From Massilia sp. METH4 (GTDB taxonomy: Bacteria; Pseudomonadota; Gammaproteobacteria; Burkholderiales; Burkholderiaceae_D): a stretch of 64,000 nt of DNA. The position numbers and the translations under genes are program-made. Every line of letters begins with the position of its first letter. Within the stretch, counting starts at the first letter, position 1. Positions 43,867 to 55,104 of the stretch are shown one piece after another. The DNA is taken from contig NZ_CP146614.1 in NCBI RefSeq assembly GCF_037094685.1, forward strand, positions 6,386,001 to 6,450,000, in the 5' to 3' direction. The notes under the pieces were generated by a model that was given only the letters and a program-made list of their open reading frames with translations, was not told where the DNA came from and searched no databases.

Positions 43867-46092
43867 ATGCAAGATCGTCGGGGTTCTCCCACTTTGCTGG
43901 CGGCGCTCGTCGCTGCGGCCTGTTCCCATTCCGTCAACGCCCAGACCGCCGAAGGGCAGTTGCAGGAGGTGATCGTTACCGCCCAGCGCACCGCCGCGCC
44001 GGAATCGAAGACGCCGGTGGCGATGAGCGTGCTGTCGGGAGACGCCCTGCGCGAAGCGGGCTTCGACACGCCGGCCGAACTGGCCAAGCGCCTGCCCAAT
44101 GTGCACCTGGATAATGCCGCCGACGGCTTGCGCATCACGATCCGCGGCGTCTCGAACTCCGACGCCACCGACAAGGGCGACCCGTCGGCCGCCTTCATGG
44201 TGGACGGCGTCTACATCGCCCGCCCGCAGAACCAGAACGCCCTGCTGCTGGACGTGGACCGCATCGAGGTGCTGCGCGGCCCGCAGGGCACGCTGTATGG
44301 CCGCAACACCACGGCCGGCGTCGTGCACGTGATCACGAACGCGCCGACGCGCAAGCTGGAAGCGGCCTTCGGCGTCGATGCCGGCAACTACGGCAGCCGC
44401 AAGGCCAACGGCATGCTGAACGTTCCCGTCACCGACTGGCTGGCGCTGCGCGCCGCCGTGGCCGTGGACCGGCACGACTCCTACCTGCGCAACGGCCAGG
44501 GTACCGGCCACGCGCTGGGCCAGGATGCCGATATCCGCACCGCCCGCCTGTCGGCCAAGGCGACCTTTGGCGCGGCGGCGCTGCTGGTGCGCTTCGACCA
44601 CAGCAGCAACGACTACAACCCGGACAGCTTCGTCTCCGACAACAACTTCTTCCGCAATGCCGACAGCGGCAATCCCGTATGGTACGGGGCGCCGGCCGGC
44701 GAGCGCCTGACGAACCGCTTCGTGCCGCGCAACGTGGTGCCGGAACAGGGCCGGGGCAGCAACCGCACGTCCGGCATCAGCGCCGAATTCACCTGGAACC
44801 TGGGCCCGGCCACGCTGTCCTACCTGGGTTCGCACCGCGAATTCGACCTGGACTTCCTCACCAACTACATTTATCGGGTGGCACCCCGTGCCACCCTGGG
44901 CGTGCGCCAGAATTTCACCGGCGGGCAGCGCCAGGATTCGCATGAGGTGCGCGTGGCAACGAATGGCACCGGCGCGTTTTCCGCGCAGGCGGGCCTGTAC
45001 TGGTTCGACGAGAAATCGCGTTCGACCTACGTGTTCCGCGACCTCGCGCCGATCGGCCTGACGCCGTACTACGTCTTCCCCACCGATCCGGTGCTGGCGA
45101 AGAGCCGCGCCGTGTTCGGCCAGCTCACCTACCGCGCCACCGACCGCCTGCGCGCCACCGCCGGCCTGCGCTACACGCAGGACGAGAAGTCGCGCGTGGG
45201 CGCCACCAGCTTCCAGCAGGGCCCCGCCTACAACCCCGCGACCGACCTGCAACTGCCCAATGCCGCACGCATCGAGACCGGCAAGCGCACCTGGCGCCTG
45301 GGCCTGGACTACGACGTGTCGAAGTCCACCTTCGTCTACGGCACCGTGTCGACCGGCTACAAGGCAGGCGGCTTCAACGACGGCTGTGTGGCCGGCACCA
45401 CGCTGGGCGTAACCTGCCCGTCCGCCGCGACCGTCGCGCCCGGCTACCTGTACTACCAGCCGGAGGAATTGAAAGCCTTCGAACTGGGTGCCAAGACGCG
45501 CTTCTGGAACAACCGCGCCAGCCTGAACGCCGCCGCGTTCAAGTACGACTACACGAACCTGCAACTGTCCGGCAACGCCATCATCGCCGGCGCGCCCCGC
45601 TTCATCACCACGAACGCGGGCGTGGCCAGCGTGCGCGGCCTCGAGCTGGACGGCAAGGTGCAACCGACCGCGGACGACCGCTTCAGCTACGGCCTGACCT
45701 TGCTCGATGCGCACTACGTGTCGTACACGCCGGACGGCATCCACTCATGGAACGACAGGAAACTCGACCGCGCGCCATCACACGTGCTGTCGGCCGGCTA
45801 CGAGCGCCGCCTGCGGCTGCCGGGCCACGAAGTGCGCGCCGGCGTGAACGCGCGCCGCAGCGCCGCCTACATGATCGGCGTGCCGTCGAAGCTGGTGCAG
45901 TACCGCGTGCCGGCGATGACGAATGTCGACGCCACGCTCGCCTGGCACCCCGACGATGCGCCGTGGACGCTCTCCGCCTACGGCCACAACCTGGGCAACA
46001 AGATCGCCCCGGCCACGATCGACAGCTTCGGCATGTCGGTGCCGGGCGCGCCGCGCACCTACGGCGTGCGCTTCGATTACCGCTACCAGTAA
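43867..46092 (+). CDS. TonB-dependent outer-membrane receptor heading a six-gene operon
   Basis: 741 residues; ATG at 43867 after GAGAAG. The signal peptide ends VNAQ. TonB box EVIVTAQRT is followed by a standard plug (TPVAMSVLSGDALREAG, LAKRLPNVHLDNAADGLRITIRGVSNSD, FMVDGVYIARPQNQNALLLDVDRIEVLRGPQGTLYGRNTTAGVVHVITN), then a barrel ending GVRFDYRYQ, where the usual terminal aromatic is followed by Gln. This plug type is common among alphaproteobacterial/xanthomonad receptors for hydrophobic or complex organic ligands. Genes for carotenoid-modifying and DUF2236 oxygenase proteins follow at 15 and 2 bp, which suggests an isoprenoid ligand. That is inference. Confidence 0.9.
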   Translation: MQDRRGSPTLLAALVAAACSHSVNAQTAEGQLQEVIVTAQRTAAPESKTPVAMSVLSGDALREAGFDTPAELAKRLPNVHLDNAADGLRITIRGVSNSDATDKGDPSAAFMVDGVYIARPQNQNALLLDVDRIEVLRGPQGTLYGRNTTAGVVHVITNAPTRKLEAAFGVDAGNYGSRKANGMLNVPVTDWLALRAAVAVDRHDSYLRNGQGTGHALGQDADIRTARLSAKATFGAAALLVRFDHSSNDYNPDSFVSDNNFFRNADSGNPVWYGAPAGERLTNRFVPRNVVPEQGRGSNRTSGISAEFTWNLGPATLSYLGSHREFDLDFLTNYIYRVAPRATLGVRQNFTGGQRQDSHEVRVATNGTGAFSAQAGLYWFDEKSRSTYVFRDLAPIGLTPYYVFPTDPVLAKSRAVFGQLTYRATDRLRATAGLRYTQDEKSRVGATSFQQGPAYNPATDLQLPNAARIETGKRTWRLGLDYDVSKSTFVYGTVSTGYKAGGFNDGCVAGTTLGVTCPSAATVAPGYLYYQPEELKAFELGAKTRFWNNRASLNAAAFKYDYTNLQLSGNAIIAGAPRFITTNAGVASVRGLELDGKVQPTADDRFSYGLTLLDAHYVSYTPDGIHSWNDRKLDRAPSHVLSAGYERRLRLPGHEVRAGVNARRSAAYMIGVPSKLVQYRVPAMTNVDATLAWHPDDAPWTLSAYGHNLGNKIAPATIDSFGMSVPGAPRTYGVRFDYRYQ

Positions 46093-46107
46093 CCGGAAGG
46101 CCGATCG

Positions 46108-52658: not shown

Positions 52659-52662
52659 TCCC

Positions 52663-55104
52663 GTGCGCCAGCCCGACTCCCAGCATGCAGCCGCCGGGCA
52701 AGCAGATTCCGGGCGTGCAGCCTCCCGGCATGCAGACTCTCAACCCGGGTTTCTGCTGACCCGCCACTGGCGCGATACCGACGCCGGTACCGAGGTCGAA
52801 TTCTGGGTCGCCACCGACGCCGGCCCGCGCCGCCTGCGGCTGCCGCCGCAACCGGCCGTCGCCTTCATCCCCGCCGAGTGGCAGGATGCCGCCGAAAAGG
52901 TGCTGGCCAGGGAGCGGGGCTGGGAGCTGCGCGCGCTGTCGCTGCGCGACTTCCGGCACCGCCCCGTGGTCGGCCTGTACTGCGGCCATTACCGGCAGCT
53001 GCTGAAACTGGAAAAGCGGCTGCGCGAGCATGGCGTGGACGTCTACGAGGCCGACGTGCGGCCGCCCGAGCGCTACCTGATGGAGCGCTTCATCACGGCC
53101 CCCGTGACGTTCGAGGGCGACGAAGCTGGCGAGGGCGACGTGATCGTCAACGCGCGGCTCAAGCCGGACGAGGGTTACCGGCCGAAGCTGCGCCTGGCCT
53201 CGCTCGACATCGAGACCACCGCGCATGGAGAACTGTATTCGATCGCCATCGAGGGCTGTGGCGCGCGCGACGTCTACATGCTGGGGCCGCCCAACGGCGA
53301 CGCGGGCACCCTCGACTTTCCCCTCACGTATTGCGCCGACCGCCCCGAACTGCTGGTACGGCTGAACGAGTGGATGGCCCGGCACGATCCCGACGCGATC
53401 ATCGGCTGGAGCGTGATCCAGTTCGACCTGCGCGTGCTGCAGAAGCATGCTGACCGGTACGGCGTGCCGCTGCTGCTGGGCCGCGGCGGCGCGCCCATGG
53501 AATGGCGCGAGCACACCAACGGCCAGCATTTCTTCGCGTCCGCGCCTGGCCGGCTGCTGATCGACGGCATCGAGGCGCTGCGCTCGGCCACCTGGAGCTT
53601 CACCTCGTTCAGCCTGGAGCACGTGGCGCGCACGCTGCTGGGCGAAGGCAAGGCGATCGACAATCCCTACGACCGCATGGACGAGATCAACCGCATGTTC
53701 GCCGAGGACAAGCCGGCCCTGGCCCGCTACAACCTGCAGGACTGCGAACTCGTCACGCGCATCTTCGCCAAGACGGGCATCCTCGACTTCCTGCTGGAGC
53801 GCGCCAGCGTGACGGGGCTGGCGGCCGACCGCAGCGGCGGTTCGGTGGCCGCCTTCGAGCATCTCTACATGCCGCTGATGCACCGCGCCGGCTACGTGGC
53901 GCCGAACCTGGGCGACGTGCGGGGCGAGAACAGCCCGGGCGGCTTCGTGATGGATTCGCGCTCGGGGCTGTACGACTCGGTGCTGGTGCTCGACTATAAA
54001 AGCCTGTACCCGTCGATCATCCGCACCTTCCTGATCGATCCCGTAGGGCTCATCGAGGGTTTGCGCGTCGAGGAGGCCGAGGTGGAGACGAACACGGTGC
54101 CGGGCTTCGTCGGCGCGCGCTTCTCGCGCACGAAGCACTGCCTGCCGGCGATCGTCACGCGCATCTCGCAGGGCCGCGAGGCGGCCAAGCGCGAGAAGAA
54201 CGCCCCGCTGTCGCAGGCGCTGAAGATCATCATGAACGCGTTCTACGGCGTGCTCGGTTCCACCGGCTGCCGCTTCTTCGACCCGCGCCTGGCGTCGTCG
54301 ATCACGATGCGCGGGCACGAGATCATGCACCGCACGCGCGCGCTGATCGAGGAACGCGGTTACCAGGTGATCTACGGCGACACCGACTCCACCTTCGTCT
54401 GGCTGGGCCGCGCCCATGGCACGCAAGAGGCCGACGATATCGGCCGCGCCCTCGTGGCGCACGTCAACGATTACTGGCGCGCGCAGCTGCGCGCGGAATT
54501 CGGGTTGGAGAGCGCGCTGGAGCTGCAGTACGAGACGCACTACCGGCGCTTCCTGATGCCGACCGTGCGCGATTCCGACGAAGGCAGCAAGAAGCGCTAC
54601 GCCGGCCTGGTGCTGCGCGCCGACGGCAGCGACGACATCGTGTTCAAGGGCCTGGAAACGGTGCGCACGGACTGGACGCCGCTGGCCCAGCAATTCCAGC
54701 AGACGCTGTACGGCCTGGTCTTCCGCGGCGAGCCGCACCGCGAGTACGTGCGCGACTACACGGAACGCATGCTGCGCGGCGAACTGGATGAATTGCTCGT
54801 CTACCGCAAGCGGCTGCGCCGCGCGCTGGACGACTACGAGAAGAACGTCCCTCCGCACGTGCGCGCCGCCCGCATCGCCGACGAATTCAATGCCGCCCAG
54901 GGCCGGCCGCTGCAATACCAGAATCGCGGCTGGATCCGCTACCTGATGACGACCGCCGGACCCGAACCGCTCGAGACGCGGCGCGCGCCGATCGATTATG
55001 CGCATTACCTGGAGCGGCAGCTGCAGCCGATCGCGGATGCGATCCTGCCGTTCCTGGGAGATAGTTTTACGGGGTTGACCAGCAGGCAGCGGGTGCTGTT
55101 CTAG
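52663..55104 (+). CDS. polB: DNA polymerase II (family B)
   Basis: 813 residues from a GTG 4 bp after the cyclase stop. Similarity to E. coli Pol II begins at residue 28 ([13 protein letters not shown]). The first ~27 residues are an unusual low-complexity extension over a repetitive stretch. Exonuclease motifs: SLDIETT (Asp182, Glu184), [14 protein letters not shown], and YNLQDCELV. Polymerase motif [13 protein letters not shown] (Asp444), motif B-type [19 protein letters not shown], motif C YGDTDSTF (Asp573, Asp575). It acts in SOS translesion and replication restart. No LexA box is obvious upstream, and expression from an operon with sensory genes is odd. Confidence 0.95.

Follow-up and report, generated by a model that had tools for sequence, protein, structure and literature searches.

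A stretch of DNA of 64,000 nucleotides from Massilia sp. METH4 (contig NZ_CP146614.1, positions 6,386,001 to 6,450,000), hereafter the window, contains a five-gene unit in which a putative haem oxygenase of the DUF2236 family stands beside a 7TMR-DISM receptor and a diguanylate cyclase, and this pairing recurs in relatives. We hold the chances about even that the core of a conserved module is a DUF2236 haem oxygenase plus a 7TMR-DISM receptor with cyclic di-GMP (c-di-GMP) output. For this output the receptor would either signal to a REC-GGDEF protein by phosphorelay or carry a GGDEF domain fused to it. Accessories would be an isoprenoid-type membrane enzyme (CruF-like here, Pyr4-like in a second module type, type B) and, in the kinase-type loci of Oxalobacteraceae, a TonB receptor. 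For all six consecutive genes, these five and a downstream polB, Pfam agrees with the families named in an initial annotation of the sequence (Table 1), while the evidence supports a functional unit of five genes, not six.

Conservation was examined in 60 genomes of the same genus, the window genome and 59 others. Orthologues of the DUF2236 gene occur in 12 of them and PF04240, the family of the CruF-like protein, in exactly those 12, leaving 48 with neither. The order TonB receptor, CruF-like protein, DUF2236, kinase and REC-GGDEF is kept in all 11 other carriers; loss of adjacency among the first genes had been named beforehand as a result that would speak against the unit, and the adjacency is retained throughout. 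In the 6.88-Mb window genome, DUF2236, CruF-like and 7TMR-DISM have one match each, and the sole DUF2236 and sole DISM matches adjoin. Because of this and the order kept in 11 of 11, the unit exceeds chance. Five carriers, including the window, have polB and a further TonB gene at the flanks, five others have a different context in common, and the remaining two have downstream genes in common, not upstream ones.

Beyond the genus, contigs were scanned with 13 orthologues, and the best 80 of 128 relatives plus other fetched loci gave 93 distinct loci of this type (type A); the 80 were ranked by similarity, so that far relatives are under-sampled. Of the 93, 89 have a DISM gene downstream of DUF2236. 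It encodes a hybrid kinase in 47 loci, all with a REC-GGEE[LIMF] gene next and a TonB gene, and 41 with CruF, which comes after DUF2236 in L050 and L063. All five genes are present, for example, in Pseudoduganella flava (L027), a non-pathogenic carrier. In 42 others it is a GGDEF-type fusion, with CruF in 30 and an intact GGDEF motif in 37. When 399 genomes were drawn evenly at the level of the order, 13 strong orthologues appeared besides the window's, 10 of them with DISM next door; 369 genomes drawn evenly at class level added only weak matches, six in all (best E 1.4e-25). As a control, 60 genomes of Pseudomonadota that have a PF09995 gene of any kind were taken (77 table rows, compared by eye). 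PF07695 lies within 5 kb in three rows, all type A (G000, G481, G628), and in none of the other 74, where the nearest is 13 kb off (G261). Incidentally, some metagenome-assembled genomes (MAGs) among the relatives carry other labels, namely Acidobacteria (L103) and Gammaproteobacteria (L085, L093); the CruF-DUF2236-DISM.GGDEF unit on the Acidobacteria-labelled contig reflects either misbinning or transfer.

The pairing may have arisen more than once. In a DISM tree of 106 rows, the sensors of kinase type group as a single clade (100/100) inside the type-A clade (100/100), which takes in two of the 20 control rows (L191, L198). Outside the type-A clade are the DISM proteins of L099, L100, L105 and L106, whose DUF2236 proteins lie within type A, the enclosing groups being moderately supported (82/89, 92/83). 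An approximately unbiased (AU) test rejected a single clade holding both DISM sets (p 0.020, on 40 rows) and one holding both sets and type B (p 0.003). The groups had been named after the first tree was seen, control branches are long and the deep order is unsure. The result fits a joining of DUF2236 with DISM receptors on two or three separate occasions. In L068, L076, L086 and other Acidovorax loci, two to three tandem DISM-GGDEF genes follow DUF2236, and they come from different branches of the DISM tree.

Type B has a distant DUF2236, with 29-31% identity to that of the window. Among 43 genomes from another family of the order, 15 carry it, always with a Pyr4-like homologue and a DISM kinase (Table 1). 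Pfam identified the kinase in L156, L157 and L159 and the cyclase in L156 and L157 (PF25129, 80.8 and 76.1 bits versus a cut-off of 27), and the remainder was assigned by tblastn. When the CruF-like and Pyr4-like profiles were compared, no similarity was found. A terpenoid substrate is supported chiefly by the like place that two isoprenoid-linked families hold beside DUF2236. The link to isoprenoid or alkene chemistry drawn by the initial annotation gains from this, as it does from the CruF-like gene adjoining that of an Lcp-fold haem protein. A survey of Pyr4-like proteins kept 264 sequences, 69% from Actinomycetota, with terpenoid genes nearby, and the words 'kinase' and 'MpaB' are absent from its main text (PMC13307353).

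The window DUF2236 has the Lcp fold, and the Lcp triad R164/T168/H198 corresponds to its R143, T147 and H178; the haem triad is kept in all 93 type-A and all 15 type-B proteins. Judged from sequence, the probable activity of the enzyme is the cleavage of greasy, terpene-like molecules. In the kinase, sequence reading shows every relay element, with an H-box, two receivers each with Asp and the Hpt His. The cyclase has its receiver Asp, the RxxD site and GGEEL, which are residues of an active REC-GGDEF diguanylate cyclase, and it is predicted to be active. The proposal of a sensor with c-di-GMP output is supported. Another distant DUF2236 gene, in L158:8222-16932, is convergent with a REC-GGDEF gene and a gene for a 2171-aa kinase with AAA, GAF and PAS domains.

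As for the substrate, the site of action of CruF-type enzymes is the isopropylidene end. The case for a carotenoid as a required substrate is weak, since a strong lycopene-cyclase match is present in just 5 of the 12 carrier genomes, the window genome included, and lacking in 7. On the other hand, two neighbouring PF00494 genes occur in each of the seven carriers covered, taken from their position to be squalene-type hpnCD, and ubiquinone-8 is general in Burkholderiales, so that carotenoids may not be needed to supply a substrate. The window genome also has a carotenoid-type cluster about 4 Mb from the unit (L162, 2478000-2494000), with PF00494, Amino_oxidase, Lycopene_cycl and UDPGT matches. 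Imported polyisoprene, another candidate of the initial annotation, is not supported, as Lcp is described as extracellular (PMC5522427) and a hydropathy scan alone finds no hydrophobic N-terminal segment in the window DUF2236.

From these observations we infer a chemistry, a substrate, a ligand and a direction of effect. The membrane enzyme would hydrate (or cyclise) a terpenoid end, the haem protein would split a C=C bond using O2, and the periplasmic or membrane DISM sensor would read the product (or its loss) and switch the cyclase. Most likely the compound would be a lipid signal of endogenous origin, with a common polyprenyl (squalene or ubiquinone-8, for instance) as its precursor. The unit would then be a synthase-receptor-c-di-GMP circuit like RpfF-RpfC-RpfG, of opposite sign. 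What stays constant beside the oxygenase is the sensor half of DISM; the output half differs between loci, and the DISM lineage apparently differs too. This suits coupling through a metabolite, not docking on an output domain. Signal-making is the reading that we favour, at roughly even odds. More tentatively, and at odds clearly short of even, the module could be a new class of bacterial self or cell-cell signalling, in which an Lcp/MpaB-type haem oxygenase with CruF- or Pyr4-type membrane partners makes a terpenoid that is the ligand of its cognate 7TMR-DISM receptor.

Several points weigh against signal-making. CruF is missing from 22 of the 93 type-A loci, four of which (L067, L150, L153, L155) also have no nearby DISM, and the GGDEF motif is missing from five of the 42 fusions (L099, L100, L105, L106, L154). 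The window CruF-like protein misses the CruF equivalog cut-offs (NF045693, 65.4 versus 400 bits; TIGR03460, 62.6 versus 154.7; NF041333, 40.4 versus 300). Lys is found at the position of the Lcp distal Lys167 in none of the 108 DUF2236 proteins (S146 in the window protein), and Lcp Glu148 has no clear counterpart in them; Lys167, the distal haem ligand, is described as 59% conserved among Lcps (PMC5522427). DISMED2 is predicted to be a carbohydrate sensor, although it is counted among the sensory domains without an experimentally validated role (PMC8846402). Finally, the TonB gene heads the operon, which fits uptake better than synthesis.

Uptake is the strongest alternative, one that we take seriously and still would bet against. 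Here a terpenoid, phenylpropene or carotenoid originating in plants or neighbours would enter through the TonB receptor, DISM would perceive it or the oxygenase product, c-di-GMP would rise, and the enzymes would convert or clear the compound. This is the model of the initial annotation minus polyisoprene and polB. However, the 42 fusion-type loci are all without an upstream TonB match, the five-gene unit and its relatives have no other catabolic gene in common, and the unit signals through a second messenger, not through a regulator of a pathway. The first of these, with the loci lacking CruF, also tells against a general import-and-degrade pathway.

It is unlikely that DUF2236 is chiefly a globin-like O2 or NO sensor controlling DISM, as H-NOX and NosP control partner kinases and cyclases. 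The conserved triad, the globin fold of Lcp and its similarity to globin-coupled sensors (PMC5522427), and the haem-protein input that c-di-GMP networks receive (PMC8846402) agree with such haem sensing, but the constancy of the DISM sensor half beside outputs that vary between kinase and GGDEF, the varying DISM lineage and the isoprenoid-type membrane enzymes beside the gene in two module types do not. A neutral neighbourhood, retained through common descent without joint function, is very improbable even though the carriers are related and strong type-A orthologues are confined to the order in the evenly drawn samples, given at least three flanking contexts in one genus, identical presence and absence of CruF-like and DUF2236 genes over 60 genomes, the change of DISM lineage and a second module type with other partners.

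A promoter-like element precedes tonB (Table 1). Its part TGNTAGACT occurs once in the window. Among the 47 kinase-type loci, 43 have it no more than 400 bp ahead of tonB (all but L037, L038, L069 and L146), and it is upstream in none of the 46 other loci (42 fusion-type, 4 without DISM). When the 30-base pattern CTRTNNC-N13-CTGNTAGACT was searched in seven carrier genomes with up to one mismatch, 8 sites were found, as many as with the backwards control. The five perfect sites (G000, G005, G038, G053, G058) are all at this operon, where G057 has one mismatch and G028 more; two one-mismatch sites are away from it.

All six open reading frames are on the plus strand, where the initial annotation had placed them, with junctions of 15, 2, 4, -4 and 4 bp. 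In a consensus scan, neither sigma70-like promoters (1 observed versus 1.2 expected) nor terminators (3 versus 8.2) are in excess, although one terminator candidate is on the plus strand within the cyclase gene, at 51977. The six genes may form the single transcript proposed before; the polB junction is doubtful. The 4-bp junction depends on a GTG start (52663) plus a leader not common to four relatives, in which the first in-frame polB starts are 19, 32, 46 and 63 bp past the cyclase stop. That leader (52663-52740) is a short, GC-rich, repetitive stretch not found in the four. The polB gene follows the unit in just 4 of the 11 same-genus relatives, and we do not retain it as a functional part. 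Two more TonB-dependent receptors are upstream of the unit (35978-43758), one divergent (41386-43758, minus strand), and they are kept in carriers having the polB context.

Table 1 Features of the unit in the window, and the type B module
Feature	Position	Strand	Evidence
Promoter-like element CTRTNNC-N13-CTGNTAGACT	43758..43787	+	Includes extended -10-like TGNTAGACT at 43779
TonB-dependent receptor, 741 aa	43867..46092	+	PF00593, PF07715; orthologue leads unit in 11/11 relatives
CruF-like membrane protein, 268 aa	46108..46914	+	PF04240 (Caroten_synth superfamily) 94.5 bits, cut-off 25; below CruF equivalog cut-offs
DUF2236 protein, Lcp/MpaB-type haem oxygenase (predicted), 451 aa	46917..48272	+	PF09995 58.7 bits, cut-off 23
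7TMR-DISM hybrid histidine kinase, DISMED2-7TM-HisKA-HATPase-REC-REC-Hpt, 1160 aa	48277..51759	+	Pfam; genome's only PF07695 match, 80.9 bits, cut-off 29; PF07696 70 bits, cut-off 22
REC-GGDEF diguanylate cyclase, RxxD and GGEEL, 300 aa	51756..52658	+	Pfam; sequence read
DNA polymerase II gene polB, neighbour outside module	52663..55104	+	NF004422 1462 bits; start codon doubtful
Type B module	L156, L157, L159, L179-L190		Distant DUF2236, then Pyr4-like homologue, with divergent 7TMR-DISM hybrid kinase, 15/15

To our knowledge, few DISM receptors have a known ligand. The recurrent pairing of DISM with one enzyme family offers a direct route to one, namely to find what the enzyme makes or destroys, and it gives a possible role to Gram-negative DUF2236 proteins. 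If the proposed circuit is right, many Burkholderiales would tie O2-dependent lipid chemistry to the lifestyle switch governed by c-di-GMP; if the module is indeed a signalling class, 7TMR-DISM receptors gain enzyme-defined ligands and c-di-GMP an O2-gated lipid input. The initial annotation knew of no described pathway with this gene set, and among the papers listed in searches of the open-licence PMC literature, none joins DUF2236 with CruF, 7TMR-DISM or a diguanylate cyclase; no paper there names CruF together with DUF2236, and no title among those on DUF2236 or the MpaB oxygenase family points to such a system. The analysis suggests that the module, present in many soil and water bacteria, is a lipid-sensing system for which no description was found.

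The closest known arrangement is the Rpf/DSF (diffusible signal factor) system of Xanthomonas, RpfF-RpfC-RpfG, in which genes for a lipid-signal enzyme, a hybrid kinase with REC and Hpt, and a REC-domain c-di-GMP enzyme lie side by side (PMC3749722). The window unit also has such a kinase and a REC-domain c-di-GMP enzyme. However, Pfam finds no RpfF-type crotonase in any of the six proteins, REC-GGDEF replaces REC-HD-GYP so that c-di-GMP is made, not degraded, and a haem oxygenase and a CruF-like protein are present. Without crotonase and HD-GYP by Pfam, membership in the Rpf/DSF system is ruled out, and the analogy is not proof that the window unit makes a signal. Lcp rubber oxygenase differs from the window DUF2236, which shows no hydrophobic N-terminal segment in the hydropathy scan, is without the distal Lys and has membrane and signalling neighbours; according to a 2018 review, Gram-negatives had no known Lcp homologue as of August 2018 (PMC6311187). 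The CruF-like protein belongs to the Pfam family of the CruF carotenoid hydratases but is far under their equivalog cut-offs and, unlike theirs, its gene is outside any carotenoid cluster. Bacterial Pyr4-like terpene cyclases are matched in type B by PF25129, in the two proteins scored. With the 7TMR-DISM family the kinase has the DISMED2 and 7TM sensor in common, and both kinase and GGDEF outputs are known there; unlike those receptors in general, the sensor type of the window is fixed beside one enzyme family.

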